Source: a virus. From it: a stretch of DNA of 64,000 nucleotides. Made by a program: the position numbers and the translations under genes. Shown piece by piece: positions 1 through 45,462 of this stretch. Every line of letters starts with the position of its first letter. Positions within the stretch are counted from its first letter, which is position 1. A model generated the notes under the pieces. That model saw only the letters and a list, made by a program, of their open reading frames with translations. It was not told the DNA's origin and made no database searches. The stretch spans positions 1 to 64,000 of the IMG/VR virus record IMGVR_UViG_3300035698_008372; one strand, 5' to 3'.

Positions 1-3000
1 AAAAAATTGGACAAAATAAAATTATCAGCGATGAACCAAGCACGAGCTAAAAAAGGGAATGTCAGTGCTAAGCAAAAAGCGATGGCAACTAAATTTAAAT
101 TCCAAGAGGATATTACAGAATCCCCAGATGATGTTATGGGAAATGCGTTCTACTTGAGATTTCATCATAGTGACGCGCGTGCATTCGGTTGGCAAAGAAA
201 TGGTGATCATGAAGGTGATGCCCTAGTTGGAGAAGAAAATGGAAAAACTCATGGTAGCATAATAGATCATGATGGTCACAGGGTTGGGAGTAGGAGCAAT
301 TTGCATTATGCCGGAAGATTGTGGACTTCACAAAAGATTATATCATTTTGGGATTATCCAAAAGCATCCGATTTGCCTAAGATGATTAAACAACTCAATA
401 AAGAATTGAAACAATATAATGAAAAGATTGACATCAATACTTGGGGCGTCGACGTTGTTGCCGATTCAAAAGGCAAATGGGCCAAAAAAATTAAAGGTGA
501 TGTAAATTTCAAAAATGATCGCTGGAATATATGGGACACTACTACTGTTATTATTCCATTGAAAAAATTCGCTGGCAGTGAAAAACGGACTGCAGAGGAA
601 ATGGGCAAATCACATTTATTGTCTCCATTACTGAAAAAGATAAGTGCGGCCAAAAAAGAGAAATTAAAGGCTATGGATAGTGCCCGATCCAAAAAGGGGC
701 ACACTTCCGCCAAACAAAAAGCCATGATGACCAAATTCAAATTTAGTGAAGATATCACTGAATCTCCGGACAAAGTAGCAATCAGTGATAATGGCACGGT
801 GACTCACCGAGACAATGAAGCTTATTCGTTTGCTCCCGGTGGAAATGATTTAAAAACGATGTTTATTAGTGACAAAGGCAGTAGTCATTCGAGTATGATT
901 GTACAGTATCCTGGTGTGGGATTCAATTGGGAATATTCGGGTAGGGTATGGATAAAACATAAGATAATAGCATTTTGGTATGTTCCAAATAAAAATAAAT
1001 TGAAAACCCAATTAAAATATATAAACAAAGCGTTAAAAGAGGTGACAGGGGTTCAAATTAATGACGATTGGCTGATCGAACTCAAGGGGGATTATTTCAA
1101 AAAAAATCCCGATAGGTTAGAACTCGCTCCATATTTTGAAGAACATGGGTATGGATTATTGCCGATTAAATATTACACAGGACAACCACCAAAGCACGAT
1201 TCCAAAGCGTATCAACAACATCAAGCTTCACCGATGAAGAAAAAGGTTAATAAGGCCAAATTGTCGGCTATGGGAAACGCTCGTATGAAAAAGGGTGGAA
1301 CTACCGCCAAGCAGAAAGCTATGGCAACTAAATTCAAATTTTCAGAAGATAAATTAAATGAGGGCAGGGTATTTAAATCGGCTGGTATAGTACCATATAT
1401 CAAAAAGGGTGGTGAAATATACTATTTATTGTTGCATAGTGGCCGCTTGTGGGGATTCCCTAAAGGTATGCTAGATAAGGGTGAGGACTCTGTTGCTACC
1501 GCAAAAAGGGAAACCAAAGAGGAAACTGGAATATCCATATCCAAAATTGATAGTGGATGGAAGGCGGCTCAGAAATTTTTCGTCAATGTTGATTATTCGA
1601 CTGGTGAGAAATTGGACAAGCCTGCCCCCAAATTTGTTGTTTATTTCTTGGGAGAATCACCAACTGAAAAAGTTAAGTTGTCATTCGAACATACGAAATA
1701 TAAATGGGTGAAATATGAAGAAGGCCTTAAATTATTAAAGTTCGGCAAGGATATACTTAAAAAAGCAAACGAGCATTTGATTAAAAATGAGATACGTGAA
1801 AGTGTTAAATTGAATGATGAAATAATTGGAAGATTTATAGAAGAAACGGATATCGTGGCAATAATTAAAGAGGCTAGTATTAATTCCAGGGCCCCAACTG
1901 ATGATGGCCCTCCAATTTTTTACAAGACATTCGCTGAATACAAAAGGGTATCCAAGAAATGGTTGAATTCCATGTTCCAAGAAACAGGTTGGGAAGTCAT
2001 GGATTACATATTGTCTCATGGTGCGGAAGACCCTGAAAATGATTTTACAATGGAATACAGTACGGTTCCTGCTGTTGCTTACGGAAAAACTGGTGATGGT
2101 GAGGGTTACCCAGACCCAGTTGGCAGGTATAAAAAACACTTCGCTAAGATGAATCGGGAACTTGGTTGGGAAATTATCAAGTGGATGGGAATTGATGGTA
2201 AAAAAGTTACGGGTGTTGGTGCGAAAGCTCCAGTCGCTGCAGGTGCCAAGGATGGTACTGAAAATTCGGATAGAATGGAAAAGGATAAAGAAATGAATGA
2301 AAATTTATTTACACAGGAATGGTGAAAAGCTGAATTTCTTCGTGGAGAATTGTTACAAGAAGGAGGAGCCTACGGACACATGGCTCACCCATTTGATAAC
2401 AGAGATTTGACTTTCGGGGATTTGAAAAAAATTATAGAATTGGGCTTGGGTGGACAACTAAATCGTGAGGATAATGTCAGTGAAAAACTGGATGGCCAGA
2501 ACCTTATGTTATCATGGAAAAATGGTAAACTAATCGCTGCTAGAAATAAGGGTCATATCAAAAATGCTGGAAAAACGGCATTAGATACAAAGGGTATGAT
2601 TGCCAAATTTAAAGGTAGGGGTGAGATATACAAAGCATTCGTATATGCCATGAAAGACTTGGGCAAAGCCATTGGTCAATTGTCGGATAAACAAAGGGAC
2701 AAGGTGTTCGATGAGGGTAAAAACTTTATGAATCTTGAAATCATGTGACCTGGATCTGCTAATGTGGTGGATTATGACTTGGCACAGATTATATTCCATG
2801 GGGCATTGAAATATGATGCCGCTGGTACTCCAATAGGTGAGGTTCCCGGTAGTGGTAGGATATTGGCTGGAATGATTAAACAGGTCAATCAAAGTGTTCA
2901 AAAACATTATAAGATAGAACAACCCATATTCTTGGATATTCCAAAGCATCAAGATTTTGGCAAGTTAAAGAAGAAATTCTCGGCCAGATTGGATAAACTA

Positions 3001-3596: not shown

Positions 3597-3754
3597 ATGA
3601 AACTGTCCGATTTGAGGCGTTTAAAAATAAGAAAGTAATTGAAATAGATGTGTTCCATAAAGATTATGGTACTATTTATAAGAAACTAAGTGCAAGTGAT
3701 AAACGCACTGTGGACGCGGCGATAGGCGGTCCTGGTGAAAAAGGAGCATACTAA
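3597..3754 (+). CDS. Small protein with probable -1 frameshift at T_TTA_AAA
   Basis: A short frame starts at ATG 3597 (MKLSDLRR, after a GGAG at 3585) and stops at a TAA after 13 codons. The -1 frame continues without interruption to TAA 3752-3754 with coding-like content (KKVIEIDVFHKDYGTIYKK). The two meet at T TTA AAA (3620-3626), a canonical -1 slippery heptamer in the correct phase. The product would be about 52 residues and starts like its neighbour MKLTDL at 4051. A single-base sequencing error or a broken gene would look the same. Function unknown. Confidence 0.45.
3673..3680 (+). promoter_or_regulatory. Possible T4-type late promoter TATTTATA
   Basis: TATTTATA followed by AGAAAC lies inside the short frameshifted gene, about 75 bases before the next start at 3756. 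The motif is the T4 late promoter core, but a chance match inside coding sequence is possible. Confidence 0.35.
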
Positions 3755-3755
3755 A

Positions 3756-4016
3756 ATGAAAAAATCAGAATTAAGACAAATGATAAGAGAAGAAATTTTG
3801 AAGGAAACTGGCACAGATAAAAATTTGCTGGGTGGTATTGATAAAGGAATTCGACCCAAAGTGGCCGAAAAAGTATTTGCGGCCATGGCAAAACAAGACA
3901 AAAAATATGATAAAATGAATAGTTCGTGAAAAGAATTACTAAAATCCAACAACGATTTTTGAAAAGAATGGCAAAAATTTAGAAATGATGCAAAAGATTT
4001 TGCTGAAAACATGTAA
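3756..4016 (+). CDS. Leader-bearing putative internal capsid protein
   Basis: An 86-residue protein starting MKKSELRQMIREEI, the leader shared with at least eight other genes here. It has two in-frame TGA codons (3927 and 3960) read as Trp beside a normal TGG, giving an amphipathic C-terminus (SSWKELLKSNNDFWKEWQK). The leader resembles the capsid targeting sequence of T4 internal proteins and ends near ILKE-T. Packaging into the head is inferred from the leader and from the neighbouring late genes. No enzyme motif is seen. Confidence 0.7.
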
Positions 4017-4299: not shown

Positions 4300-4857
4300 A
4301 TGAACAGAGAAAATAAGGCCATGAAGGATATTCTGGCAGGTAGAAATCCAGACAAGAAAATACAAGTATCAATGTGGAATCCAGATAAGGATGAAACCAT
4401 TATTAAAGAACGCGAGAAAACTGCTAAAGAAAAGACTGATCGTGATGAAAAATCGGAAATTTTAAGGGCGGCTAGAATGCCAATGTTTTGCCCCGAATGT
4501 AAACACATAATGAATAAAACGGCCGATAAGAAATTTTTCAATCTTACTGGTAAATGTATGGATTGTGTGGTAACTGAAGAGAATAGACACAGGATTGATG
4601 GGACATGGGATGTGTACGAAAAGACAAAGGTGCTTCAGAATAAGAGGTCATGGATAAACGAGCAGATTGCTAGTATAGTGGAATGGCGTAAGGGTGAGGA
4701 AGTGAAATTTCTCAATCAGATTAATCCAGATGGTCATTCAGTTGAAGAGGAAAAATGGGAAACCAACAAGGCTCAGATTGAAATGCTAGCAGATAAAGCT
4801 ACAAAAGAGTATAATGAGATGTTGGACTCAGTAAATAGCGAATTATCAGAACTTTAA
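4300..4857 (+). CDS. Zinc-ribbon protein of unknown function
   Basis: A 185-residue protein with one zinc ribbon near residues 65-90 (CPEC and CMDC), a basic charged N-terminal segment, and a C-terminal helical region (EEKWETNKAQIEM). The upstream AACAAAAGAGGTTAATATGA is nearly identical to that of the bS21 gene at 17781, suggesting similar translation control. It has no TGA codons. A regulatory or virion assembly role is possible but not supported by a recognised family. Confidence 0.65.
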   Translation: MNRENKAMKDILAGRNPDKKIQVSMWNPDKDETIIKEREKTAKEKTDRDEKSEILRAARMPMFCPECKHIMNKTADKKFFNLTGKCMDCVVTEENRHRIDGTWDVYEKTKVLQNKRSWINEQIASIVEWRKGEEVKFLNQINPDGHSVEEEKWETNKAQIEMLADKATKEYNEMLDSVNSELSEL

Positions 4858-4865
4858 TATTTATA
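4858..4865 (+). promoter_or_regulatory. T4-type late promoter TATTTATA
   Basis: TATTTATA followed by AGTGAAC overlaps the stop codon of the zinc-ribbon gene and lies 30 bases before the GTG start at 4895. It matches the core recognised by T4 gp55-type late sigma factors. Confidence 0.7.
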
Positions 4866-4894
4866 AGTGAACAAGTGTATATAGGAGAAATTTA

Positions 4895-5167
4895 GTGAAA
4901 AAATCAGAAACCATAATGAAGAAATCAGAATTAAGACAGATTATACGAGAAGAAATCCAGAAATTGAATGAAGCCCGACCAATTAATATTGAAATTTGAT
5001 ATGACAATCCGAATGAAGAAAAATTTATTAAATCCAATGTTAAAAAATTTGGTGGTAAAATAATTAAACCATCTGGTGATCAAATTTCAACCATTTGGGA
5101 TGGGGATGGATATGAGTTTTCCAAATTGATGAAAAAGCATAAATTGAAAATTTATAGGTGGTATTAA
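4895..5167 (+). CDS. Leader-bearing putative internal capsid protein with doubled leader start
   Basis: A 90-residue protein. GTG 4895 is preferred because GGAG lies 9 bases upstream, while the internal ATG at 4916 has no ribosome binding site. The N-terminus reads MKKSETIMKKSELRQIIREE, a partial duplication of the leader's first residues. The leader ends QKLNE-A, a good protease site. TGA 4997 is read as Trp (NIEIWYDNP). Function unknown; head packaging is inferred. Confidence 0.7.
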
Positions 5168-5189
5168 TATTAAATTGAAGGAAAAGTAA

Positions 5190-5474
5190 ATGAAAAAATC
5201 AGAATTAAGACAAATTATTAGGGAAGAAATTCAGAAATTGAATGAGGCTGCACCAGTGCATGCCGATTTTGGTAAATATCTTGGTGATCTTACTGACAGT
5301 AAAACTATTTGGTTGTACCCAAAAAAGGGCGCATACGATTTCAAAAAAGAAATTGTGATACTAAAAAAGGCTTTTGGTAAAGCAAAAGTAACACCACATG
5401 AAATGGATTCAGTGGAGCTGGTATTTTCTAAGCCAATCCCAAGTCCAAAAGAGTGGGCGAACGCACTAAAATAA
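5190..5474 (+). CDS. Leader-bearing putative internal capsid protein
   Basis: A 94-residue protein starting MKKSELRQIIREEIQKLNE and then AAP, giving the clearest LNE-A cleavage site of the family. The remaining ~75 residues look like a compact alpha/beta domain (KTIWLYPKKG, SVELVFSKPIP). The next gene begins 12 bases downstream, so the two are probably co-transcribed from the late promoter at 4858. Function unknown. Confidence 0.7.
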   Translation: MKKSELRQIIREEIQKLNEAAPVHADFGKYLGDLTDSKTIWLYPKKGAYDFKKEIVILKKAFGKAKVTPHEMDSVELVFSKPIPSPKEWANALK

Positions 5475-5486
5475 GTGGAGAAAAAC

Positions 5487-5822
5487 GTGAAACTAATAGA
5501 CATGTTGAACAAAGACGGGAAAGTTTATTCTGTTAAAAAACTGGATGAACAGATGGAAATTGGTGATATCACATTCGATGTGGGTAAGGTGTATAATTTT
5601 GGAGACGGATTCAAATCAGTAAATGAAGAGGATATCCGACCAAAAAATGAAGAAAAAGAATACCCAAAGCCCATTAAGAAAATATTCAATAAATTTGGGA
5701 TTCCCCCTAAGGCACATAGTCCAATTTTGACTATGTTGGCGTATATAGAGAAGAATCCAGACGCATTAAAGACTATATTAAAATCAGCGGGCATGACCGA
5801 AAATAAAAAGGGCGAAAATTAA
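5487..5822 (+). CDS. Hypothetical protein, MKLIDML start
   Basis: A 111-residue protein. The GTG at 5487 is chosen because GGAG lies 6 bases upstream; the alternative GTG at 5475 would place that site inside the gene. Its start MKLIDMLNK resembles the MKLTDL/MKLSDL group. The stop overlaps the next start by one base (TAATG). No recognised domain. Confidence 0.65.
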   Translation: MKLIDMLNKDGKVYSVKKLDEQMEIGDITFDVGKVYNFGDGFKSVNEEDIRPKNEEKEYPKPIKKIFNKFGIPPKAHSPILTMLAYIEKNPDALKTILKSAGMTENKKGEN

Positions 5823-6136
5823 TGAATAAGATATTTACATATATATGGAAGGGAATACTGGCGTTGGCTAGTATTGCATCCATATTCTTTGCTTTGAAGA
5901 ATAAAGAAATTAGGGATTTGAGCAAGGTTATCAAAGATAATAAGAAAAAAGAAAAAGAAGTCAAAAAGGAAATTGCCCAATTGGAGAATAATAAGCAGGC
6001 CAATAAAAAGGAAATCGAAAAGCTCAAGGGTGATTTGGACAATACTAAAAAAGAAATAGAAGAAATGGAAACTGTATATAAAAGCGATGATGTAGACGCT
6101 GCAGTTAAATTTCTCAAGGATTTTGCTAATGGTTAG
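5822..6136 (+). CDS. Membrane-anchored coiled-coil protein, candidate inner-membrane spanin
   Basis: A 104-residue protein with an N-terminal membrane segment at about residues 8-25 (GILALASIASIFFAL) followed by a long Lys/Glu-rich coiled coil to about residue 80. This topology and the overlap with a following lipoprotein-like gene recall Rz/Rz1 spanin pairs, which join the membranes during lysis. Family homology was not recognised, so the spanin role is inference from architecture. A virion or membrane scaffold role is also possible. Confidence 0.5.
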   Translation: MNKIFTYIWKGILALASIASIFFALKNKEIRDLSKVIKDNKKKEKEVKKEIAQLENNKQANKKEIEKLKGDLDNTKKEIEEMETVYKSDDVDAAVKFLKDFANG

Positions 6137-6482
6137 ATGGATTATGATAATACTGATAGTATTATTGTCATGTGGATTTGGACAACATTCATTTACGGAT
6201 GAAGAAGTATTAAATATTGCCAATAAGGTGACTGAATTGCAACGGCAGGACAGTTTAAAGACAGTAGCTATGGTGACACAGGGTATGATTATAAAGAAAT
6301 TGGAATTCCAAGCGGAAATGGATTCTTCGATTATTGCGTCCAAAGATAAGAATATAGAAATTTTAGAAGAACGAGTAGAATTGGTTAAACCCAAATGGTG
6401 GCAGAATCCGAAGATTGCTTATGTCGGTGGAATGGCCACAGTATGATTTACATTATGGGCTAACGGGCAAATAGTGGGATAA
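6129..6482 (+). CDS. Lipoprotein-like coiled-coil protein, candidate spanin partner
   Basis: A 117-residue protein. ATG 6129 overlaps the preceding stop and has AAGGA 8 bases upstream. The N-terminus is a signal peptide with a lipobox-like end (LIVLLSC, Cys about residue 15). A coiled coil follows, then a hydrophobic C-terminus (IAYVGGMATV) that continues through TGA 6444 read as Trp to TAA. A second hydrophobic tail is unusual for a classical outer-membrane spanin, so the role is uncertain. Confidence 0.5.
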
Positions 6483-6483
6483 T

Positions 6484-8070
6484 ATGATGAATGAAGCACA
6501 AAAACTAAAAGAGGCGATGAAGAAAGAGTACATTAAGTGTGCTGTTGATCCCACGTACTTTATGAGAAAATACTGCATCATTCAGCATCCGCAACGTGGT
6601 AAGGTAAATTTTAACCTTTATGATTTTCAGGCCGATACTCTAGAAAAAATAGTAAGCAATAATTACACTGTAATTCTCAAAGCTAGACAACTGGGATTAT
6701 CCACATTAACTGCCGGATATGCCCTTTGACTAATGACATTCAATACGGATAAGGATATTTTGGTTATCGCTACGAAACAGGATAAGGCCAAAAACTTGGT
6801 AACAAAAGTAAGGGTTATGCATGCAAATTTACCAAATTGATTAAAATCCACCTGTACGGAGGATAACAGACTTTCAATGAGTTATAAGAATGGCTCAAGA
6901 ATTAAAGCAGATACATCATCCCCAGACGCTGCACGATCAGAATCACTATCATTATTGATTCTCGATGAAGCGGCATTCATCCCAAAAATTAACGATATAT
7001 GGACAGCAGCTCAACAGACATTAAGTACTGGTGGCCGCTGTATTGCATTGAGTACACCAAATGGTGCTACTGGATGGTTTCACGATATATGGGTTGGTGC
7101 GGAGAATAAGGTTAATTCATTTTTTCCAATATATCTTCACTGGACGGTACACCCAGAACGTGATCAAGTATGGCGTGACAAGCAATCTTTGGATTTGGGC
7201 CCAGAATTGGCCGCCCAGGAATGCGATTGTTCGTTTATCACTTCTGGAAAATCGGTAGTCCCCGGTCCAATTATTCAATGGTATTTGGATAATTTAAAGG
7301 AAGAACCCATCGCACGAGAAGGTCTTGACGGTAACTATTGAAAATGGAAATATCCTGAAATTGGAGCATCCTATGTGGTTTCGGCAGACGTGGCACGTGG
7401 CGATGGTAAGGATTATTCCGCATTTCATGTAATTAATATTGACACATTGGAACAAGTGGCTGAGTATCAGGGGAAAGTCGATACTAAAGCATTTGGAGAT
7501 TTATGTGTAAATGTGGCTACAGAATATAATGACGCACTGTTAATTATTGAAAATGCCAATATTGGTTGGGGTTCGATTCAACAGGTTGTTGACAGGGATT
7601 ATAAGAATTTATTTTACGCCACATCGGACTTGAAATATGTGGATGTAAAATCACAGATGACAAACAAATATTATAGAGACGATCGAAAAATGGTGGCAGG
7701 GTTTTCAACTACTAGCAGAACCAGACCAATGATCGTGGAAAAACTGGTGGAATATTTTAGAGATAAAACCGCAATAGTACATTCCAATAGACTAATAAAT
7801 GAGTTATTTTCATTTGTATATGGTCCTGCTTCGGCCGCACAGGCCGATTATGGTGCTAATGACGATTTAGTAATGAGTTTCGCGATAGCCCTATGGGTAC
7901 GTGATACTGCAATTCGTCTAAGAACTGAGGGAATGACTCAGCAGAAAAATTTAATGAAGCAAATGGTGGATTATCAACCAGTTTATAGCGAAAGTAGTAA
8001 TAAAAATGATTCATGGAATTGGGACGACTCACATGGGAATAATGTTGGGTTGGACTGGTTGCTGGATTAA
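6484..8070 (+). CDS. Terminase large subunit (gp17-like)
   Basis: A 528-residue ATPase-nuclease that packages DNA into the prohead through the portal. The ATPase domain has a Walker A variant KARQLGLST and Walker B LLILDEAAF. The C-terminal nuclease has the acidic motifs SADVARGDGKDYSAF and, late, YGANDDLVMSFAIALW. Three in-frame TGA codons (6727, 6838, 7339) fall where homologues have Trp: GYALWLMTF, LPNWLK and GNYWKWKYP. Without recoding the gene would be four fragments. Twelve or so other Trp codons are TGG. It lies directly upstream of the portal, as in T4-like phages. Confidence 0.97.
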
Positions 8071-13597: not shown

Positions 13598-13600
13598 ATA

Positions 13601-13825
13601 ATGAAAAAATCTGAATTACGTCAAATCATTAAAGAAGAGCTTTTGAAAGAAGAAGAAGGTGACCTCGGCCGTGACATTGATAGGGTTGTCCAGATGGCAA
13701 AGGATAAATTTAGCGATTGGGAATCCGATAAAGAAATCAACAAATTGACAATGAAAAATTTACAAAGGCTTGCCGATTTCTTCGGCAAAGACGCTAAAAA
13801 ACTATTGGCTAAGGAGGGCAAATAA
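13601..13825 (+). CDS. Leader-bearing putative internal capsid protein
   Basis: A 74-residue protein starting MKKSELRQIIKEELLKEEEGD, only four bases after the protease stop. The rest is charged and helical. Candidate cut sites lie in LLKEEE-G. It is the smallest member of the leader family next to the protease. Function unknown. Confidence 0.65.
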   Translation: MKKSELRQIIKEELLKEEEGDLGRDIDRVVQMAKDKFSDWESDKEINKLTMKNLQRLADFFGKDAKKLLAKEGK

Positions 13826-18423: not shown

Positions 18424-18432
18424 GAGATAACA

Positions 18433-18960
18433 ATGGAGAAATCAGAACTGCGTCAATTAATCCGTGAAGAAATCAAGCGGGTCATGATAAAAGAAGATTA
18501 CGCCGATGATCTAGCCAAAAAGTTGGTTAAGTCGAAAAAGGTTAAATCTGGCATGAATGAAAAGGATAAACTATCCGCCGCTGGTGCTCAAATGAAAAAA
18601 GATTTGGGTGACAAGCGGGCTAAAAATTGGTGGACTACATATCCCGATTTTGCAGCCGATTTCCTAAGTGCCGTGTCCAGCAATCTATCAGAATCGAGCG
18701 TTAATGAAAGTGAATATAAACTTGATGGTAAATTAATTAAGCGATTGAAAATGCCCATTTTACAAACATGAGACTATATTGGTAGTGATGCGATGGAATT
18801 GGGTGTTAGTGATAATGGAGATGCCATAGAATTGACAATTGATGCTTCAAGATTGGCCCAACAAGATAAGGAAGCCGATCAAATAATTCAGGACATTGTG
18901 GCTAAATTCGGGTATAAGAAAGTATTAAAATTTTTAAGCAAAAATATACGAGCATATTAA
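18433..18960 (+). CDS. Leader-bearing putative internal capsid protein
   Basis: A 175-residue protein starting MEKSELRQLIREEIKRVM, a leader variant. TGA 18769 is read as Trp (LQTWDYIGSD), and the extension adds about 60 residues to TAA 18958. Around residues 90-105, SNLSESSVNESE contains further candidate cut sites. GGAG lies 8 bases upstream of the start. Function unknown. Confidence 0.7.
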
Positions 18961-18961
18961 T

Positions 18962-19738
18962 ATGAAAAAATCAGAATTAAGACAAATCATCAGAGAAGAA
19001 ATTCAAGTCATAATGGAACGTGATGTGGCTTATGATTTGACAAAAATCATTAGAAGCCGACCAGACGCATCCACAAAGAAAAAATTGGCAAAAATATGAT
19101 CGTCAATGGATAAGAAATCCACAGAATATGGTCATGTTGAAAAGGCTTTATCCGCTTGGGGCGATCCCTATAGTGGTGGTGAGACTTGGCAATCACATGT
19201 TGAAAAAGCAATAGGTGCATTGAATGAAGATAAAAAATCCGACTTTCTGGCACAGGCATTTGCCAAACAGAATAAAGAGGGCAAACTGGTAGTAGTTCAG
19301 GGTGGTAAGTTCGGTAAAAAGAATTTCAAAAAGGGTCAAAAATTAAACATATTAGGCAGAACATCAAAAGCCTTGCATCCATCACAACAGGGTCTGGTAG
19401 TACAGAATCCTAGTGGTAGGGGTGAATTTGTAGTATATGACCACTTCCTCAAAGACGAATCTATATTCAAAATTGTAAAAGAGAAAATGAATATGGGTGT
19501 AGTCAGGGCCAAACGGGCAACTGAATTGGATGAAGGGGTTGGAGTTACACTTAGTAACAATAGTGCCGATAGAAGAGATGCATTGGCCATCCTAAAAGAC
19601 GAATTTAAGGGTGTAAAATATAAGATTAAGGGTAGTGATTATATAGTGTTCAAAAACGATAAGGACGCTGAAAGATTTTTCGATCTGTGCCAACAAGATT
19701 ATACCGAATTGGCCGGCGCGAACAAAGAGAAATATTAA
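18962..19738 (+). CDS. Leader-bearing putative internal capsid protein
   Basis: A 258-residue protein starting MKKSELRQIIREEIQVIME, one base after the previous stop. TGA 19097 is read as Trp (KKLAKIWSSMDKK). The middle is a basic beta-rich domain (GKLVVVQGGKFGKKNFKKG), and LDEG near residue 185 is a possible site. The C-terminal 75 residues form a small alpha/beta unit. It overlaps the next leader gene by one base. Function unknown. Confidence 0.7.
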
Positions 19739-20493
19739 TGAAAAAATCAGAACTACGTCAAATGATCAGGGAAGAAATAGAGCTTACTATCAATGAGGGG
19801 GCATTTGCCAAGTTTAAGGACATGATAGAAAAGGCCGTTGAAATGCACACCATAGAAAAGTATATCAAAGCTAATGCGGTCAAAATGTTCAAAGGTATCC
19901 CAAATGGTAGTGGATTTGAAGAGCTCAAAAAGGCCATTTTATTTTATGCAAAAGCGTACGAAAATGGTATGAGTGGACGGACCAAATCCAATCGGTTCTA
20001 TGGAATTCAACAGGTATTCCAAAAAAATCCAAAGGTTGAAAAATGATTCTTCCCAGGACTTAGGCGCGGTAAAATAACCCGTGAATATTTAAGACAATTT
20101 GTGGTAGCTTTTGCAAAAGATTACAAAGGGGTAACCGAATCAATCAAATTGAATGAATCAAATGAGGTTGTCAATTCCATGAAACCCGATGTTGATGAAT
20201 TGGTAAAATTATTGTCTGCAAAATACAAGCGAGCAGACGTGGGACTTGTCAGGATTAAAGAATGGGCGCCAACCCAAACCGCATTTGAAATAAAAATTTA
20301 TGATAAAGAATTGTTCAATCATCTAACTGTATGGGTGTGGGGTAAGGAACAGGACTCTGCCAGAATATCAATAGAGGTGGCAGGAAGCAACGAACACAGC
20401 TTCAAACGGGGTGTTAGACCGACAGTGAAACAAATGTACAAAGCGATATTAAAGTCATATAGGGGACATAGAAACCCTCCAATTGTAAAATAA
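19738..20493 (+). CDS. Leader-bearing putative internal capsid protein
   Basis: A 251-residue protein starting MKKSELRQMIREEI, with INE-G as a clear site at about residue 20. TGA 20044 is read as Trp (KVEKWFFPGLRRG), joining two halves. The C-terminal half has LKLNE-like repeats of the site (IKLNESNEV) and a basic beta domain (FEIKIYDKELFNHLTVW). Function unknown; head packaging is inferred. Confidence 0.7.
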
Positions 20494-21879: not shown

Positions 21880-23496
21880 ATGAGTAAAAGCCTACAAACA
21901 ATCGAAAAACTAATGGGTGGCTATTCTCCAGTTCGTAAGAGATTAGAGGAGTCTAAGGCTCTTGTAGCAAAGTGGGAACCCACTGGACTACTTGAAGGTC
22001 TTAGTACAGAACATGATGTAAACAATATGGCAGTGTTGCTTGAAAACCAAGCACGTCAGCTTATTGATGAATCATCTAAAACTGGAACCGCCTCCAACTC
22101 TGAAGAATGGAGCGGCGTAGCCCTTCCACTAGTTCGTAGAATATTTGGTGAATTAGCTGCACAGGAATTCGTTTCTGTACAACCTATGAACCTGCCTTCA
22201 GGACTTATTTTCTATCTAGATTTTAAGTATTCTACAGCACAACCAGGATTCGATTCAGGGTCCGACATTTATGGTAACACAAGTTCATCTGGCGATGCAA
22301 CTGGTGGTCTTTACGGCGCAGGTCGTTTTGGATATACCTCAAATGATGTATCAGTAGCATCAACTTCCTTCGTAACCGCATCCGTGGTTTGGGGTGATGT
22401 TGATTTCGAAGCAGACTTGTCTGCATCAGTCGCTGCTGGAACACTTCTTAAAATTACCATTCCAAAGGCACAGGCAGCTGCTGCTGATTGGGACGCTGTA
22501 CGTTCATTCGTAATTAGTGGTTCTGGTACTTCAGAAGTAACAACACTGTATCCCGCTTACAGTAAAATAAGTGGTACAAACGCTATCTTTATTATTGATC
22601 CCGCGCTCGCACCTTCTGGTAGTGGAACTCAATTCACAATCAAATATAGCAAACAACCTACTGACATCACTCGCGGTGATTTCGAACAGACCAGTTTCAC
22701 GACTCCTGCTCCTAATTCAGCTGATGATATCGGTATCCCTGAGATCGACATTCAGATGCGTTCGATTCCGATCGTCGCAAAGACCAGAAAGTTAAAAGCT
22801 ATCTGGACACCTGAACTAGCTCAGGATTTAAACGCATATCATAGCGTTGATGCAGAAGCAGAATTAACTGCTATGTTGTCTGAATATGTAACAATGGAAA
22901 TTGACTTGGAAATTCTTGACATGTTGCGTGCAAACGCTTCTGCTAGGACTGAGTACTGGTCAGCAAAGATTGCTAACGAATATAACGCTTCCACAGGTTT
23001 ATTCGAAGAGACATCTGCTAACGCTTCTGCTTATGTTAAGGGAACGTGGTATCAGACTTTGGGTAATAAAATCCAAAGAGTTTCTGCAGCAATTCACCAA
23101 AAAACCCTCCGTGGTGGTGCAAACTTCCTAGTTGTTTCTCCGGAAACTGCTACGATTATCGAAAGTATTCCGGGTTATGCCGCTGATACTACCGGTGATG
23201 CATCTATCACTTCATTCGCTATGGGTGTTCAGAAGGTTGGTATGTTGAATAACAGGTTCACTGTTTACAAGAACCCTTACATGCACGAAAACGTCATTCT
23301 TGTCGGTTTCCGTGGAAGTAATTTCTTGGAAACTGGTGCTGTTTATGCTCCATACGTTCCACTGATCATGACACCACTAGTGTATGATCCAGTAAATTTC
23401 ACCCCGCGTAAGGGTGTCATGACGCGTTATGCGAAGAAAATGGTCCGGCCCGAATTTTATGGCACGATTGTTGTCGCTGACACGAATTTGGTCTAG
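21880..23496 (+). CDS. Major capsid protein (gp23-like)
   Basis: A 538-residue HK97-fold T4-type capsid protein. Recognisable segments are the N-terminal SKSLQTIEKLMGGYSPV, the conserved VSVQPMNLPSGLIFYLD region, EIDIQMRSIPIVAKTRKLKA and TPLVYDPVNFTPRKGVMTRY. A probable gp21 cut lies at LLE-G near residue 46, consistent with removal of the N-terminal delta peptide. All Trp codons are TGG despite the length. Codon choice appears more optimised than in neighbours (my impression), as expected for the most abundant product. A strong terminator follows at 23532. Confidence 0.97.
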   Translation: MSKSLQTIEKLMGGYSPVRKRLEESKALVAKWEPTGLLEGLSTEHDVNNMAVLLENQARQLIDESSKTGTASNSEEWSGVALPLVRRIFGELAAQEFVSVQPMNLPSGLIFYLDFKYSTAQPGFDSGSDIYGNTSSSGDATGGLYGAGRFGYTSNDVSVASTSFVTASVVWGDVDFEADLSASVAAGTLLKITIPKAQAAAADWDAVRSFVISGSGTSEVTTLYPAYSKISGTNAIFIIDPALAPSGSGTQFTIKYSKQPTDITRGDFEQTSFTTPAPNSADDIGIPEIDIQMRSIPIVAKTRKLKAIWTPELAQDLNAYHSVDAEAELTAMLSEYVTMEIDLEILDMLRANASARTEYWSAKIANEYNASTGLFEETSANASAYVKGTWYQTLGNKIQRVSAAIHQKTLRGGANFLVVSPETATIIESIPGYAADTTGDASITSFAMGVQKVGMLNNRFTVYKNPYMHENVILVGFRGSNFLETGAVYAPYVPLIMTPLVYDPVNFTPRKGVMTRYAKKMVRPEFYGTIVVADTNLV

Positions 23497-28661: not shown

Positions 28662-28690
28662 TTGACTTTGTCGTTTTTATCTTGTATCTT
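28662..28690 (+). promoter_or_regulatory. Early promoter TTGACT-17-TATCTT
   Basis: TTGACT, 17 bases, TATCTT, then CAGGTATGAG. It faces a ~150-base stretch with no convincing gene beyond a 14-codon frame, ending in an inverted repeat at 28809. Confidence 0.9.
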
Positions 28691-30655: not shown

Positions 30656-30684
30656 TTGACTTTGTCAATATAATCTTGTATATT
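30656..30684 (+). promoter_or_regulatory. Early promoter TTGACT-17-TATATT
   Basis: TTGACT, 17 bases, TATATT (closer to the sigma70 -10 consensus than most copies), then CAGGTATGATAAGAAAAGG. It begins the run of genes to about 32487. Confidence 0.92.
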
Positions 30685-30710
30685 CAGGTATGATAAGAAA
30701 AGGAAAACAA

Positions 30711-31127
30711 ATGAATTTAAGAGAAATGACACCACAAGAACGAGAAGTAACAATGGCTGAATGGCGGGAAAAAGACAGTCTCAAACAAGAAGCTGAAATG
30801 GCCGAACGCCACAAAATTAAGGAGTTCGCTAATTTATGTGGATATTCAGACGTTGAACCTTATGAAGTTGTTGAAACTCGTACTCCTAATAAGGTTATGA
30901 TTCGATTTATGGATTCTGAAATGCTTACACCGGCTAAGTGTGTAGCAATTGGTGGATTCGTTGGTCACTTTGATAACTATACTCAGACTTGGGAAAACTC
31001 TTCAAATGAAGAATATCCTTTGGTGGCAATCCGTTGGTCAAAGGCTAAGGGATACTGGTTTGATAAGTACGGAAGACGCTTTAGTATGTCTGATAAAGCT
31101 GTCAAATTTTACGATAACAACTTCTAA
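30711..31127 (+). CDS. Hypothetical protein
   Basis: A 138-residue protein starting MNLREMTPQEREVTMAEWRE with AAAAGG upstream. A helical charged N-terminal third is followed by a beta-rich domain (NKVMIRFMDSEMLTP, VAIRWSKAKGYWFDKYG). No family recognised. Confidence 0.6.
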   Translation: MNLREMTPQEREVTMAEWREKDSLKQEAEMAERHKIKEFANLCGYSDVEPYEVVETRTPNKVMIRFMDSEMLTPAKCVAIGGFVGHFDNYTQTWENSSNEEYPLVAIRWSKAKGYWFDKYGRRFSMSDKAVKFYDNNF

Positions 31128-31141
31128 GAAAGGCCCATATA

Positions 31142-31570
31142 ATGGCTTACATGTCTCAAGAAAATAAGAAATCAAAGGCTCCAAAAATCAAAGCTTTGTT
31201 GAAGGAATATGGAATCAAAGGATCGTTGGCCGTACGGAATTACAGCACATTGGTTCTAAATTTAAAGGGCGGCACGATTGATTTCATCGGCGAATATAAC
31301 AAACAGGTGGATGCTCAGAATTCCAGGGTTGGTCAGTATAGAGCTGAAGGTTATATGGATGTTAATACTTATTGGTATATGGAACATTTCACTGGAGAGG
31401 CCAAGGAATTTTTTGGTAAGGTTCTTGAAATTATGAATGATGGGAACCACGATAATTCGGATGCTCAGGTTGATTATTTCGACGTGGGTTGGTATTCCAA
31501 TATTAATGTTGGTAAGTGGAATAAACCATACGAATATGTTGCACCGATATTGGAGCATGATAATGAGTAA
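31142..31570 (+). CDS. Conserved phage protein of unknown function
   Basis: A 142-residue protein (MSQENKKSKAPKIKALLKEY, SLAVRNYSTLVLNLKGGTID). I recognise this motif from a hypothetical family found in KVP40-like and other large phages. It overlaps the next gene by eight bases. Function unknown. Confidence 0.7.
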   Translation: MAYMSQENKKSKAPKIKALLKEYGIKGSLAVRNYSTLVLNLKGGTIDFIGEYNKQVDAQNSRVGQYRAEGYMDVNTYWYMEHFTGEAKEFFGKVLEIMNDGNHDNSDAQVDYFDVGWYSNINVGKWNKPYEYVAPILEHDNE

Positions 31571-31811
31571 ATTAAGTAAAGCACACAAAGCATTTATTGT
31601 AGAATCCGCTATGGATTATCTTGGGGTCAGTGATAGAAATCCCGAAGTGGGTATGGGCATGTTTGCCTTTACCGCTGTGGACCTTGCGGTGGCAGAATTT
31701 AAAGAAACGGCCGAACTTTTCGGGCCGGTAATTGATGTTTCTCAAGCTGAAAAGGATGAAATTGAAGAAGAGGTCGTTCGATTACGAACATGGCCAAATG
31801 GAGCACACTAA
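31563..31811 (+). CDS. Small acidic hypothetical protein
   Basis: An 82-residue acidic protein (MSKLSKAHKAFIVESAMDYL, C-terminal EKDEIEEEVVRLRTW). Start lies in the end of the preceding gene and the stop overlaps the next ATG. Function unknown. Confidence 0.6.
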   Translation: MSKLSKAHKAFIVESAMDYLGVSDRNPEVGMGMFAFTAVDLAVAEFKETAELFGPVIDVSQAEKDEIEEEVVRLRTWPNGAH

Positions 31812-32044
31812 TGGCAGATAAAATTAAGTGGTTGACAAAAGTGGAAGATATCGAGGGTTCTGGGATAGAAGTGCTCGAGAATTCACTATTAACTACAGAT
31901 GGTAAGGGTAAAGAATTTAAACAGTTGGTACTCGATGAATTGAAGTACCAATTGACTAACCAACTCATAGAACGGAATGCCCATCTTGAGAGATTGGTGA
32001 GCTCGTATGAAGTGGGTATTGATCCCTACGCACGGAACTTGTAA
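31811..32044 (+). CDS. Small hypothetical protein
   Basis: A 77-residue helical protein (MADKIKWLTKVEDIEGSGIE, LKYQLTNQLIERNAHLERL). Overlaps the preceding stop. No family recognised. Confidence 0.55.
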   Translation: MADKIKWLTKVEDIEGSGIEVLENSLLTTDGKGKEFKQLVLDELKYQLTNQLIERNAHLERLVSSYEVGIDPYARNL

Positions 32045-32046
32045 TC

Positions 32047-32487
32047 ATGACAAATAATTATATGGTATCGGGTAGTGTGGGGGGTTTCTACGGCGGGTCT
32101 GTTCCATCTGGGTGGGTGCAAATGCAATACGATGTGCCGAAACCATTCACAGAATGGGAATCTAAAATTGGAAAATCTAACAATTGGTGAAATGGTGTAA
32201 ATGCAATCCCAGAATTTAAATCCAAGATACCAAGAAAAAACCCGTGGCTGGATATGTGGTATCCAAAGGTAACCATCGCGATGGTTGGTTTGCCGGCTGT
32301 AAGGAATGCATTTCCTCAACAAATAGCTCAACAAATAGTCAGTGTTCAACCTATGGGAACCCCAAAAGGGGTGACATACTATATGGATGAAATTTATGAA
32401 AAAAATAAATATAAACGGGCGTGGAATAAATTCAAACGATTATGCCAATTTGGGACAACCAAACTATTTATTGGAAAGCAAAAATAA
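32047..32487 (+). CDS. Early-region protein carrying a capsid (gp23)-like segment
   Basis: A 146-residue protein starting MTNNYMVSGSVGGFYGG. TGA 32188 is read as Trp (SNNWWNGVNAIPEF), the only clear internal TGA in the early-promoter block. Residues about 80-117 (GLPAVRNAFPQQIAQQIVSV, QPMGTPKGVTYYMDEIY) align without gaps to residues about 86-122 of the capsid protein here, with roughly half the positions identical. The rest does not look like capsid. The segment corresponds to the conserved gp23 region that in T4 includes the Gol peptide. A decoy or interfering role is speculative. Confidence 0.65.
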
Positions 32488-32490
32488 CGG

Positions 32491-32519
32491 TTGACTTTGT
32501 CATAAATATCTTGTATCTT
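32491..32519 (+). promoter_or_regulatory. Early promoter TTGACT-17-TATCTT
   Basis: Core and spacer match the other copies; it overlaps the stop of the preceding gene. The leader reads CAAGTATGAAAAGAAAAGG; here the leader ATG is out of frame with the gene, showing that it is not the true start. Confidence 0.92.
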
Positions 32520-32544
32520 CAAGTATGAAAAGAAAAGGAATATT

Positions 32545-32751
32545 ATGGATTTATTAGACAAAATTATAGCTTATGAACAAGGTGAACTTGGGAGTGACGC
32601 AACGATTGATTTATTTTCGGAACTGGTAATAAGTGGCCAAGCATGGTCATTACAGGGTCATTATGGCCGAACCGCTTCCCAATTGGTTACTGAAGGTTTC
32701 TTAGCTGAAACTGGTGAGGTTTTAAGATATTTCGACAGTGAGGTGGCATAA
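32545..32751 (+). CDS. Conserved small phage protein
   Basis: A 68-residue protein (MDLLDKIIAYEQGELGSDAT, WSLQGHYGRTASQLVTEG). The LQGHYGR motif is a widespread small phage family of unknown function. AAAAGGA precedes the start. The stop overlaps the next ATG. Confidence 0.75.
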   Translation: MDLLDKIIAYEQGELGSDATIDLFSELVISGQAWSLQGHYGRTASQLVTEGFLAETGEVLRYFDSEVA

Positions 32752-32906
32752 TGTGGTATCGCATCAAATACCGTGTCGCGATGGCATGGATTAACGCAAT
32801 TCTATTAGGAGATTTAATAATGGAAAAATTACAATGGGTAAAGTTTTACACAATTCAATCAACCGTATATGTACTATACGGGTTAAATTCGGTAATTAGA
32901 GTATAA
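32751..32906 (+). CDS. Small hypothetical protein
   Basis: A 51-residue protein (MWYRIKYRVAMAWINAILLG). A second in-frame ATG at 32820 preceded by AGGAG could be the main start, giving 28 residues. Hydrophobic patches suggest membrane contact. Function unknown. Confidence 0.45.
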   Translation: MWYRIKYRVAMAWINAILLGDLIMEKLQWVKFYTIQSTVYVLYGLNSVIRV

Positions 32907-32909
32907 TTG

Positions 32910-33104
32910 ATGAATAAATATATTAATAAGTATTTTGAATGGGTCACGTCGTTTAGTACGGGGCAACGATTTATGATATTTGTATCATTATTTGCTCTGG
33001 CCATAGTAGTTAATGTAAACGGAGCGGTGTGGCTGGGGTATCCTATGCTTTTTCTAGCTGGAAACTTTTTTCCATCGTCACTATTATTTAAAGGAAAAAG
33101 ATAA
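32910..33104 (+). CDS. Small membrane protein
   Basis: A 64-residue protein with two hydrophobic segments (FMIFVSLFALAIVVNV, LGYPMLFLAGNFF) and a basic tail. It is in the same tight gene run. Function unknown. Confidence 0.55.
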   Translation: MNKYINKYFEWVTSFSTGQRFMIFVSLFALAIVVNVNGAVWLGYPMLFLAGNFFPSSLLFKGKR

Positions 33105-33105
33105 A

Positions 33106-33336
33106 ATGCGTTCCGTCATTTTAAAGAGTAAAGAATCAATTATAGTGGGTGACCACATCTATCAAATGGATGAACAGGGTGAACCCAACAGGGATATTGA
33201 ACCGATCCACATTGAATTGGCGGCATGTAGTGATGACTATTTAAAGTCATTGTCACAAATGGAATTATTGGCGTTCGCTAATTATTTCAGTGAATATAGA
33301 GAAGTTTACTTCGGAGGGTACACATTCAATGCTTAA
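33106..33336 (+). CDS. Small acidic hypothetical protein
   Basis: A 76-residue protein (MRSVILKSKESIIVGDHIYQ, LSQMELLAFANYFSEYRE). It overlaps the next gene by eight bases. No family recognised. Confidence 0.55.
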   Translation: MRSVILKSKESIIVGDHIYQMDEQGEPNRDIEPIHIELAACSDDYLKSLSQMELLAFANYFSEYREVYFGGYTFNA

Positions 33337-33640
33337 TACGGAAGAAGCATATAAGACAGTAATTGACATTTTGATATCATATTCCGATACTCAGAAACTT
33401 GAGTTGTTCCACTATATCGCCAAGAACTACCCCGATTCTATGGCCGATTCGGCAATGGAAATGTATGGTGGTATAGTTTCTGGTGAAAAGGTTTCCGCGG
33501 AAATTATTGAATATCTAAGGCAGAATAAAAAAATTAACGCTATTAAGGTGTACCGATCAACGTCTGGTATGGGGTTAAAGGAATCTAAGGATTTTATTGA
33601 CGAGGTTGATAGGGACTTACGCAGAAGAGGAATAATTTAA
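33329..33640 (+). CDS. Protein with ribosomal L7/L12 C-terminal-like domain
   Basis: A 103-residue protein. The last ~35 residues (NKKINAIKVYRSTSGMGLKE then SKDFIDEV) match the core of the L7/L12 C-terminal domain, in which a GLKEAK-type motif contacts translation GTPases. The N-terminal ~65 residues are helical and unlike the L7/L12 N-terminal dimer domain. It may bind a translation factor or mimic the stalk. The motif match is visible; the role is inference. Confidence 0.7.
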   Translation: MLNTEEAYKTVIDILISYSDTQKLELFHYIAKNYPDSMADSAMEMYGGIVSGEKVSAEIIEYLRQNKKINAIKVYRSTSGMGLKESKDFIDEVDRDLRRRGII

Positions 33641-36822: not shown

Positions 36823-37308
36823 ATGACAGGTAGATTTATGACAGGTCGGGATTTGAAACTCTTTGATCGGATCAATAAAGAATTAATAGGTGATTTAGGC
36901 CAAGCAAAACCCGGTTGGATAAATCAGACTGCCATATTATATAAGGTATCCGTAAGCGATACCAAAGTGGATATGTACGGAGAAAGCTCGGATGGTAAAG
37001 TATGGAAATCGGGGGTAGAATTTGCATGTCTCATTGACGCCGAAGATTTCGATTGGAGTAATGAAGCATACGGTACTGATGAGGGGCAAAATGTGTCATT
37101 CTATCTAATGAGGGATGCACTGGTACAGGCCAGCATTGTACCACAACAGGGCGATATATTTGAATGGAATTTCGGATATTTTGAGATAAACGGGATCAAT
37201 GAAAATCAACTTATATATGGGGATGTAGAAAACAATTGGTCGGCTGGATATTCTTGTCATAGGATAAGAAAATCCAATGTGAACATCGAAAGAGTTAGGA
37301 GCAATTAA
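36823..37308 (+). CDS. Neck protein (gp14-like)
   Basis: A 161-residue protein (MTGRFMTGRDLKLFDRINKE, ILYKVSVSDTKVDMYGES). The motifs and position match gp14-type neck proteins, although it is shorter than T4 gp14 (256 residues). A second in-frame ATG at 36838 is possible. It overlaps the next leader gene by one base. Confidence 0.7.
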   Translation: MTGRFMTGRDLKLFDRINKELIGDLGQAKPGWINQTAILYKVSVSDTKVDMYGESSDGKVWKSGVEFACLIDAEDFDWSNEAYGTDEGQNVSFYLMRDALVQASIVPQQGDIFEWNFGYFEINGINENQLIYGDVENNWSAGYSCHRIRKSNVNIERVRSN

Positions 37309-37793
37309 TGAAAAAATCAGAATTAAGACAGATGATAAGAGAAGAAATTCAGAAATTAACTGAAGGGCAAGTAAAAATTTGGAAATCTCCTCAAGGTGTG
37401 CTAAGACGAAATAAAGATTGGTCATACTCTGTTTTCAAATCTATGGATGATATGGACGCAAATAAAGCGGTTTTGTCAAATGTTAGCATGGACGACTTGG
37501 CTTCATGGGGAGCTAAAAACAAGAAACAATTTAAGGCTATGGGATTGAGTGGGTTCACCGAATCTATAACCGAAGAAGTCAAAGAACCACCATTGATAAC
37601 CAAAATTCGGTGGATTGTGGACAATAAGCAATTCAAAAAAATTAACGGACAAGTGGTTGATGCTTTCACCGCACAACACGTAATTCAGGTGTACGATGCG
37701 CTTGGTGATAAAAACAAAGAGCAATTTGGCAAGATGAAATTAGAACCTATGGTTAACCTTACATGGAAACTATTTAAAAAGGTAGGAAAATAG
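37308..37793 (+). CDS. Leader-bearing putative internal capsid protein
   Basis: A 161-residue protein starting MKKSELRQMIREEIQKLTE and then G, an LTE-G site. A repeated short domain (NKDWSYSVFKSMDDMD, ESITEEVKEP) and a helical C-terminus follow. It sits among neck genes rather than the prohead cluster, which suggests the leader family is not tied to one locus. Function unknown. Confidence 0.7.
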   Translation: MKKSELRQMIREEIQKLTEGQVKIWKSPQGVLRRNKDWSYSVFKSMDDMDANKAVLSNVSMDDLASWGAKNKKQFKAMGLSGFTESITEEVKEPPLITKIRWIVDNKQFKKINGQVVDAFTAQHVIQVYDALGDKNKEQFGKMKLEPMVNLTWKLFKKVGK

Positions 37794-37794
37794 T

Positions 37795-38025
37795 ATGAAA
37801 AAATCAGAATTAAGACAAATAATTAGAGAAGAAATTCAGAAATTGGATGAAAAGGCTTTTGACAAACCCAAATATATTCGACACATCAATGTGCCCCCTA
37901 ATAATATCAATGTGATATTATACAATGATAGAATCCAAATCGTCGGCGGCCACACTGGTTATGAAGAATATATTATGATTGACGAATTGCCCGATCTTAT
38001 AAAAGCACTTAAAAAAATAAAATAG
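37795..38025 (+). CDS. Leader-bearing putative internal capsid protein
   Basis: A 76-residue protein starting MKKSELRQIIREEIQKLDE. The rest is a small beta-rich domain (NVILYNDRIQIVGGHTGYEE). The preceding leader gene ends two bases upstream, so the two look like a tandem pair. Function unknown. Confidence 0.7.
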   Translation: MKKSELRQIIREEIQKLDEKAFDKPKYIRHINVPPNNINVILYNDRIQIVGGHTGYEEYIMIDELPDLIKALKKIK

Positions 38026-41652: not shown

Positions 41653-41678
41653 AAAGCCCTCGATTTATCGGGGGTTTT
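41653..41678 (+). terminator. Rho-independent terminator after sheath gene
   Basis: AAAAGCCCTCGA and TCGGGGGTTTT form an imperfect hairpin with a TTTA loop, followed by TTTTG. Confidence 0.75.
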
Positions 41679-41745
41679 GTGTATCTGGTTTATAATTATT
41701 ATTAGTAATTGGTGGTATGGGTTGGTAATAAATAAAGGAATGATA

Positions 41746-43374
41746 ATGGGTAGAAATATGGATAGTTCAAAGTGGGAAATTAGAAAATGCAAAATGTGCA
41801 GTAATGAATTTAAAGTGTATAAAATACAGAAAAAGACGATGTGTTCATCAGATTGCCGTAAAAAATGGAATTTATTGCCTAAAAATATAGAACATAAACG
41901 AAAAAAATCTATTGAATCGCAAATGGAAAAATATGGAAAATTATTTTACCAGACTGAAGAATTTCAACAAAAAACGAAAAAAATCAAGTTGGAAAAGTAT
42001 GGTGATGAAAATTATGTAAATGTGGAAAAAGGTAAAAAAACCAAGTTGGAAAAGTATGGTGATGAAAATTACAATAACAGGGATAAGTTTAAAGATACGA
42101 TGATTGAAATATTCGGTGGAATAGGCCTACAAAGGCCCGATGTATTGGGGGCGGCTAAGAGGGGTATGGTTGAAAAATATGGAGTGGAATATGCATTTCA
42201 AAGTGATGATATTAAAAACAAAATAAAACGAACTAATATTGGCAAGTTTGGTAAAGAAACATATTGGGGCTCCAATGTTTATAATCAAGAAATGTATAAT
42301 AAGAAAATGGAATCGTTAATTCCGATATTGGAAGAAATGAATTTGATAATGTTATCTGATTATGGTGGTAGTAAAAAAATCGTTGATGGTCATGCCAAGC
42401 ATATTAAATATGATTTTAAATGTTTAACATGTGACATGACATTCAATTACACTACAGCCAATGGCATTGTTCCAAAATGCCCGAAATGCTATGGAACCGA
42501 TGGAGGGACGTCATTCATGGAAAGGGAATTTCAAAAATATATAAGAGAATTATTACCAAATATTGAAATATATGAAAATGATAGGACTTTATTAAATGGC
42601 AAAGAATTGGATGTGTATATTCCGACTAAAAACTTGGCATTTGAATTCGATGGTTTATACTGGCATTCTGAAACCAAAAAGGATAAAAATTATCATTTAA
42701 ATAAGACTGAAAAATGTGAGAAAAATGGTGTTAGACTTATTCATATTTTTGAAGACGAATGGGTATATAAGAATGATATAGTAAAAAATAGAATTAAGCA
42801 TATAGTTGGGATTATGGATAAAAAAATATATGCTAGAAATACCAAAATTAAGGAAATTTCTGCTAAAGAAAAGGGGAAATTTCTAAATCAATTTCATGTT
42901 CAAGGCTCTGGAAAATCTAGTATTAAATTGGGAGCTTTTCATAATGATGAACTAGTCGCGGTCATGACATTTGGAAATAATAGAATTGCTCTTGGGAATA
43001 AAAACAAAGAAGGTGAATATGAATTAATCCGATTTGCTTCTAAATATTCAATAACTGGTGGCGCCAGCAAATTGCTTTCATATTTTACCAAAAATTATAA
43101 TCCGTCCAAAATTATAAGTTATTCAGATAGAAGATGGAACACTGGATTGGTGTATGAGCGAATGGGATTTAAAAAAATATCAAATGGGACACCTGGATAT
43201 TGGTATGTGAAAAATGGCCAAAGATTTCATAGATATAATTTTAGAAAGTCACTATTATCGGAAAAATTAAAGAAATTCAATGATAGTTTAACGGAATGGG
43301 AAAATATGCAATTAAATGGCTTTGATCGAATATGGGATTGTGGCAATTTTAAGTATGAAATGAATTTAAAATAA
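41746..43374 (+). CDS. Homing endonuclease-like protein (Vsr-like/EDxHD type)
   Basis: A 542-residue protein. Start ATG 41746 has AAAGG about 8 bases upstream. An N-terminal zinc-ribbon-like unit (CKMCSNEF with MCSSDC) is followed by five KYG-type repeats (KLEKYGDENYVN, KLEKYGDENYNN, MVEKYGVEYAF), a known DNA-binding repeat style. A second ribbon (CLTCDM, CPKC) precedes a nuclease-like domain (KELDVYIPTKNLAFEFDGLY, HIFEDEW) with Vsr-like character. It is flanked by terminator and promoter and separates sheath from downstream tail genes, as mobile genes do. It has no TGA. Confidence 0.75.
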   Translation: MGRNMDSSKWEIRKCKMCSNEFKVYKIQKKTMCSSDCRKKWNLLPKNIEHKRKKSIESQMEKYGKLFYQTEEFQQKTKKIKLEKYGDENYVNVEKGKKTKLEKYGDENYNNRDKFKDTMIEIFGGIGLQRPDVLGAAKRGMVEKYGVEYAFQSDDIKNKIKRTNIGKFGKETYWGSNVYNQEMYNKKMESLIPILEEMNLIMLSDYGGSKKIVDGHAKHIKYDFKCLTCDMTFNYTTANGIVPKCPKCYGTDGGTSFMEREFQKYIRELLPNIEIYENDRTLLNGKELDVYIPTKNLAFEFDGLYWHSETKKDKNYHLNKTEKCEKNGVRLIHIFEDEWVYKNDIVKNRIKHIVGIMDKKIYARNTKIKEISAKEKGKFLNQFHVQGSGKSSIKLGAFHNDELVAVMTFGNNRIALGNKNKEGEYELIRFASKYSITGGASKLLSYFTKNYNPSKIISYSDRRWNTGLVYERMGFKKISNGTPGYWYVKNGQRFHRYNFRKSLLSEKLKKFNDSLTEWENMQLNGFDRIWDCGNFKYEMNLK

Positions 43375-45433: not shown

Positions 45434-45462
45434 TTGACTTTGTCGTTTTTATCTTGTATCTT
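45434..45462 (+). promoter_or_regulatory. Early promoter TTGACT-17-TATCTT
   Basis: It has the standard core, followed by the full leader CAGGTATGATAAGAAAAGGA; nearly identical to 28865. Confidence 0.93.

Follow-up and report, generated by a model that had tools for sequence, protein, structure and literature searches.

A segment homologous to the major capsid protein gp23 in a small accessory gene from an uncultured T4-like virus

Phage capsid proteins commonly set off bacterial immune responses. The capsid protein triggers CapRel (PMC9712102), it is also the trigger of Thoeris, from which an E-loop mutation escapes (PMC11312562), and in T4 the Gol peptide of the major capsid protein gp23 activates Lit (PMC3014915). 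The 29 residues of the Gol region lie in the first quarter of gp23 and have been called the protein's most conserved part, and they bind EF-Tu and let Lit cleave it; the T4 peptide binds domains II/III of EF-Tu and inhibits its GTPase, and the region has been proposed to bind EF-Tu of all hosts (PMC3014915). The same paper gives 13 residues within a 20-residue core as needed for Gol activity. In mature T4 gp23, the N-terminal part forms the N-arm, which becomes ordered upon expansion (PMC9958956). Accessory genes of T4-like phages, in turn, can be organised in PeSL-type gene shuffling cassettes (Arbiol 2010; Comeau 2014; as cited in PMC4503421). Here we describe a small accessory gene that carries a gp23-like segment.

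The gene lies in a 140,003-base record of an uncultured T4-like virus of bacteria, of which the stretch analysed, positions 1-64,000, is called the window; the remainder of the record was covered as four further stretches. The relevant features, in window coordinates, are:

21880-23496, + strand: complete major capsid protein gp23 of the phage, 538 aa (Pfam Gp23, 255.8 bits)
30656-30685, + strand: promoter copy, most likely driver of the operon 30711-32487 (exact match to the repeated promoter TTGACTTTGTCN6ATCTTGTATNTTC)
32047-32190, + strand: upstream ORF of 47 aa, in the same frame as the small ORF, ending in TGA (no homologue; in-frame coding score +0.22)
32191-32253, + strand: 63-base gap separating the two ORFs, with their shared frame open throughout (coding score +0.24, over only 21 codons)
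32254-32487, + strand: small ORF of 77 aa with the gp23-like segment (ORF list, Pfam Gp23, codon-usage score)
32284-32397, + strand: gp23-like segment of 38 codons, VGLPAVRNAFPQQIAQQIVSVQPMGTPKGVTYYMDEIY (BLASTP to the window gp23; T4 gp23 alignment; profile A2, E 6e-9)
32491-32520, + strand: next promoter copy, beginning 3 bases past the small ORF

The segment aligns ungapped with the phage's own gp23, with 19 of 38 residues identical (BLASTP, E 2e-10), confirming the short, about half-identical gp23 piece described by the first-pass annotation, while its range in the capsid protein is corrected from residues ~86-122 to about 80-117. Pfam Gp23 (PF07068) matches residues 11-55 of the small protein (45 residues; 32.6 bits, E 7.8e-8) over 43 of its 376 profile positions, above the curated gathering cut-off of 24.4 bits, the downstream frame having scored 31.6-32.6 bits, and PHROG 138 'major head protein' matches as well (E 6.1e-7); an NCBIfam search of the small protein gave nothing meaningful. 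PF07068 is found in only two places of the 140,003-base record, the gp23 gene and the small ORF. The product is not a full HK97-fold capsid protein (~400-540 aa), having 77 aa and spanning profile positions 7-49 only. Searched alone, the flanks of the segment, that is, the tail and head of the protein, gave no match, which bears out the earlier description of them as unrelated to gp23, and the profile searches, which could have placed the whole protein in an unrelated family, returned Gp23 instead. Judged from these sequence comparisons, the small gene truly carries a ~40-residue piece of the major capsid protein.

Against T4 gp23, the segment aligns with residues 96-136, with 15 of 41 residues identical as counted on the alignment. 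Homology to the neighbourhood of Gol, as first proposed, is thereby supported for T4 residues ~96-136, the overlap being judged by position in the conserved region. By analogy with the HK97 fold, the second half of the segment would be placed at the start of the E-loop.

The segment had initially been assigned to a 146-residue protein with an internal TGA. This TGA is present at 32188-32190, but it does not hold as a gene-internal codon, since TGA is a normal stop in this phage, where on the + strand it closes 2 of the 12 long genes and 23 of the 68 long open frames. Read-through, or recoding of TGA as an amino acid, was rejected because TGA closes normal genes here and the window is without a tRNA, none having been found in a search of it. 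Thus, 32047-32190 and 32254-32487 are better taken as two ORFs and the 146-residue protein is not supported, the likely gene being 32254-32487. This second part measures 98 aa from stop to stop and 77 aa when counted from the ATG at 32254, where no Shine-Dalgarno sequence was seen, and its codon-usage score is best in its own frame (+0.10 vs -0.34 and -0.26). The first part (47 aa) had no match in Pfam, PHROG, IMG/VR or phage records, and the 63-base gap at 32191-32253 may be a spacer or the leftover of a longer frame.

The 30-base promoter is present in 11 copies in the window, with 0 expected, and in 23 copies genome-wide (140 kb), 22 of them on the + strand. The near-identical sites in the window include those at 28662, 28865, 30656, 32491, 43388, 45434 and 47133, and the repeat is accompanied by an upstream AAAATAACGG box and a downstream AAAAGGA. 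The copies at 30656 and 32491 bracket the genes of 30711-32487, and the small ORF is the final gene of this operon, its stop TAA lying inside the AAAATAACGG box of the following repeat. The same arrangement is seen at several other copies; as other genes here end in the AAAATAACGG box too, we abandoned the idea that this stop is the trace of a recombination joint. The small gene may be early, a label deduced solely from the sigma70-like type of its promoter. No terminator-like site was found on the + strand at 31000-33500, and Rfam gave no matches in the 28-36 kb region of the window; G-rich/T-run sequences were noted by eye before the promoter copies at 45434, 47133 and 63657. No relatives were found for the neighbouring proteins encoded at 31566 and 31790, as expected of a shuffled accessory region.

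In order to place the segment within gp23 diversity, we used 62 distinct gp23 segments from related contigs, in which 14 columns are conserved at ≥95%. The small protein keeps 12 of these 14 near-invariant columns and matches 8 of the 26 variable ones (Fisher P 0.002). Its best identity to any of the 62 is 20/40, and each of the 62 has a neighbour within the set at ≥33/40. At 13 positions it has a residue that none of the 62 shows there; the corresponding count is 12 for the distant gp23 of Pantoea phage Phynn and 9 for that of Synechococcus phage Sf-FR1, so an unsampled gp23 lineage is possible as donor. When the phage's own gp23 was allowed to decay neutrally to 20/40 identity in simulations, at least 12 conserved residues were kept in 0.13% of the runs, and in none were they kept in a frame that was also stop-free. 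Together with the bias towards conserved columns, this led us to reject a neutrally decaying copy of the phage's own gp23 as the source of the segment.

Several positions that are always hydrophobic in the 62 gp23s are polar in the segment (I/L/V to Q, V/I to T, and F/Y/M to E, the last being A and S in the two distant gp23s of Phynn and Sf-FR1), and its Pfam score is lower than those of nine real gp23 segments (32.6 vs 39-75 bits). Both features are as expected for a piece freed from the capsid. These comparisons would fit a segment captured recently from some unsampled gp23 as well as one maintained for long under gp23-like constraint, both being possible, and the 12 of 14 near-invariant residues in an open frame could equally mean selection for function. 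AlphaFold2, run with 14 aligned segments, returned a mean pLDDT of 53 and a pTM of 0.16, so that in this prediction the 77-aa product does not fold by itself and probably forms no independent domain.

Searches of relatives, IMG/VR, phage records and GTDB found no homologue carrying the same segment as a stand-alone gene. The relatives covered included 41 gp23 loci; 26 records had one gp23 gene each and no stand-alone piece, and a further search of 21 records that encode a homologue of either gene 31142 or the VWA gene showed at most one gp23 gene and no second piece; these searches used exact short peptides, by which distant stand-alone copies could be missed, and most of the relatives' records are fragments. 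A profile scan of IMG/VR gave at least 588 relatives, and among the best 80 of these all matches lay in long frames or were cut by contig ends. Only ordinary gp23 genes, or nothing, came from IMG/VR by peptide patterns and by alignment, from GTDB genomes and from phage records. The individual candidates were discarded: four hits to two IMG/VR DNA patterns fell in unrelated frames, weak hits in L044/L040 (353 aa) were dismissed as composition, and the L107 hit proved to be a complete gp23. In the nearest relatives of the neighbouring operon, L073 and L074, whose VWA protein is 76% identical, the contigs begin just downstream of the small gene. These searches yielded no donor gp23 or breakpoint DNA, and an all-against-all search of the genome's ORFs surfaced only this fragment of gp23 or of any other recognised structural gene.

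We therefore have, in our estimate, a somewhat better than even case for a captured gp23 fragment residing in an orphan small ORF of an accessory region, coming from an unsampled gp23 lineage or held under gp23-like constraint. Recombination would have brought a gp23 piece of about 38-45 codons, comprising the N-arm helix and the first E-loop strand, into this ORF of a T4-like phage, the donor being an unsampled gp23 lineage, or the piece having been kept under gp23-like constraint. The accessory region is made up of short operons with near-identical promoters at their heads, and such an arrangement favours gene shuffling. Transcription of the small ORF probably starts from the promoter at 30656, and translation, if any, would give a ~77-aa peptide without a fold of its own and presumably without a settled function. 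Of the three meanings offered in the first-pass annotation, a recombination-derived fragment ranks best, given gp23 homology between flanks that match nothing; the analysis neither supports nor excludes a decoy or interference with capsid assembly. Should it be no more than a captured fragment, the gene documents the entry of structural-gene pieces into the T4-like accessory gene pool.

A functional mimic of the gp23 N-arm/E-loop, acting as an antagonist of a capsid-sensing defence or as a poison of a competitor's gp23 assembly, is a distinctly less probable reading. The retention of the most conserved gp23 residues and membership of a small accessory operon under a sigma70-like promoter are consistent with it, as is the role of capsid proteins as known triggers of CapRel, Thoeris and Lit (PMC9712102, PMC11312562, PMC3014915). 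However, no orthologue was found, no fold is predicted and several hydrophobic positions have become polar. Moreover, it is the capsid protein that activates the known sensors; a faithful mimic would therefore set them off, and protection would require a putative antagonist form; likewise, since Gol activates Lit, an early Gol-like decoy would set off that defence unless it were an antagonist.

That 32047-32487 was a single 146-codon gene, cut at 32188 by a nonsense codon or a sequencing error, we consider improbable. The two parts share a frame, the 63-base gap is open and both parts have a coding-like score, but a shared frame and an open 21-codon gap would arise by chance with considerable probability, and outside the segment neither part resembles gp23 or anything else, nor was an intact relative found. 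Counted along the 146-codon frame, the segment starts at residue 80, the same position as in this phage's gp23; its start among other gp23s spreads over about 60-107, so this coincidence is only mildly suggestive.

Slightly more doubtful again is a Gol-like peptide aimed at translation, which would bind EF-Tu like T4 Gol and alter its activity early in infection. The segment lies in the neighbourhood of T4 Gol, for which EF-Tu domain II/III binding and binding in all hosts are described or proposed (PMC3014915), and the next operon encodes, at 33290-33640 (+), a small protein whose C-terminal part matches the ribosomal L7/L12 C-terminal domain (Pfam 30.5 bits, cut-off 25.9), kept in the close relatives L073 and L074. 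Phage bL12 domains keep the residues that contact EF-Tu and EF-G (PMC6375957). Nevertheless, L12-like domains are present in many phages, which may make this a coincidence, and, judged by eye, the segment resembles T4 gp23 only about as much as does the phage's own gp23. The L7/L12-like neighbour makes the EF-Tu theme worth testing, no more. An early stand-alone capsid mini-peptide derived from Gol/N-arm, antagonistic to EF-Tu or to capsid-sensing immunity and possibly acting with the L7/L12-like protein, would be equally speculative. A role directed at defence, assembly or EF-Tu is thus possible but unproven. An artefact is very unlikely: the sequence comes from an uncultured virus contig and no orthologue of the gene was found, but E values of 1e-7 to 1e-10 exclude chance resemblance, and against a chimeric metagenome assembly the gene is flanked by intact genes and stops within the promoter repeat of this phage, with no chimeric partner visible.

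Other features of the genome were observed in the course of this work. Nine small ORFs on the + strand (3726-3926, 4871-4996, 5190-5471, 13598-13822, 18424-18768, 18938-19096, 19672-20043, 37299-37790 and 37786-38022) share the N-terminal tag M(K/E)KSELRQ(I/M/L)I(R/K)EE before unrelated remainders, resembling a targeting signal of internal head proteins. In a long frame at 7-2325 (+), a motif like KLxAMxxARxKKGxTSAKQKAMxTKFKFSED occurs three times, the copies lying between differing segments, of which one looks Nudix-like by eye, and 41677-43374 (+), just before a DNA-ligase-like gene, encodes an endonuclease-like protein (DUF7487, with weak Mom and REase matches). Paralogous genes are found in tandem in L240 at 4698-7032 (genome 88698-91032, +; three genes of about 265 aa) and as an array of small ORFs of about 80-110 aa in L242 at about 10.6-13.4 kb (genome 134.6-137.4 kb, +).

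Compared with the Gp23 family (PF07068, PHROG 138), the small protein shares the pattern V.LP.VR..F....A...VSVQPM..P.G..YY.D..Y, including the 12 of 14 near-invariant columns, but the remainder of the ~540-aa protein is missing, its flanks are orphan, several hydrophobic positions have turned polar, and it is encoded 10 kb away from the gp23 gene, in an accessory operon. It corresponds to the capsid-protein region of the T4 Gol peptide (T4 gp23 ~96-136); in contrast to T4, the region here is a separate small gene with only 15/41 identical residues, for which EF-Tu binding or an effect on Lit is putative. As a separate gene, this most conserved region would offer a natural tool for testing whether phages deploy capsid mimics against capsid sensors or translation. 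With the PeSL cassettes the locus shares short accessory operons headed by repeated promoters, with an early-type promoter of 23 genome-wide copies next to the gene and its copies at 30656 and 32491 flanking the operon, whereas no stem-loop or terminator was found by these two promoters and shuffling here is putative. Finally, as in the viral bL12-type inserted domains (PMC6375957), a piece of a known protein stands between unrelated flanks, but in this case its origin is a structural protein of the phage's own class and not the host ribosome.
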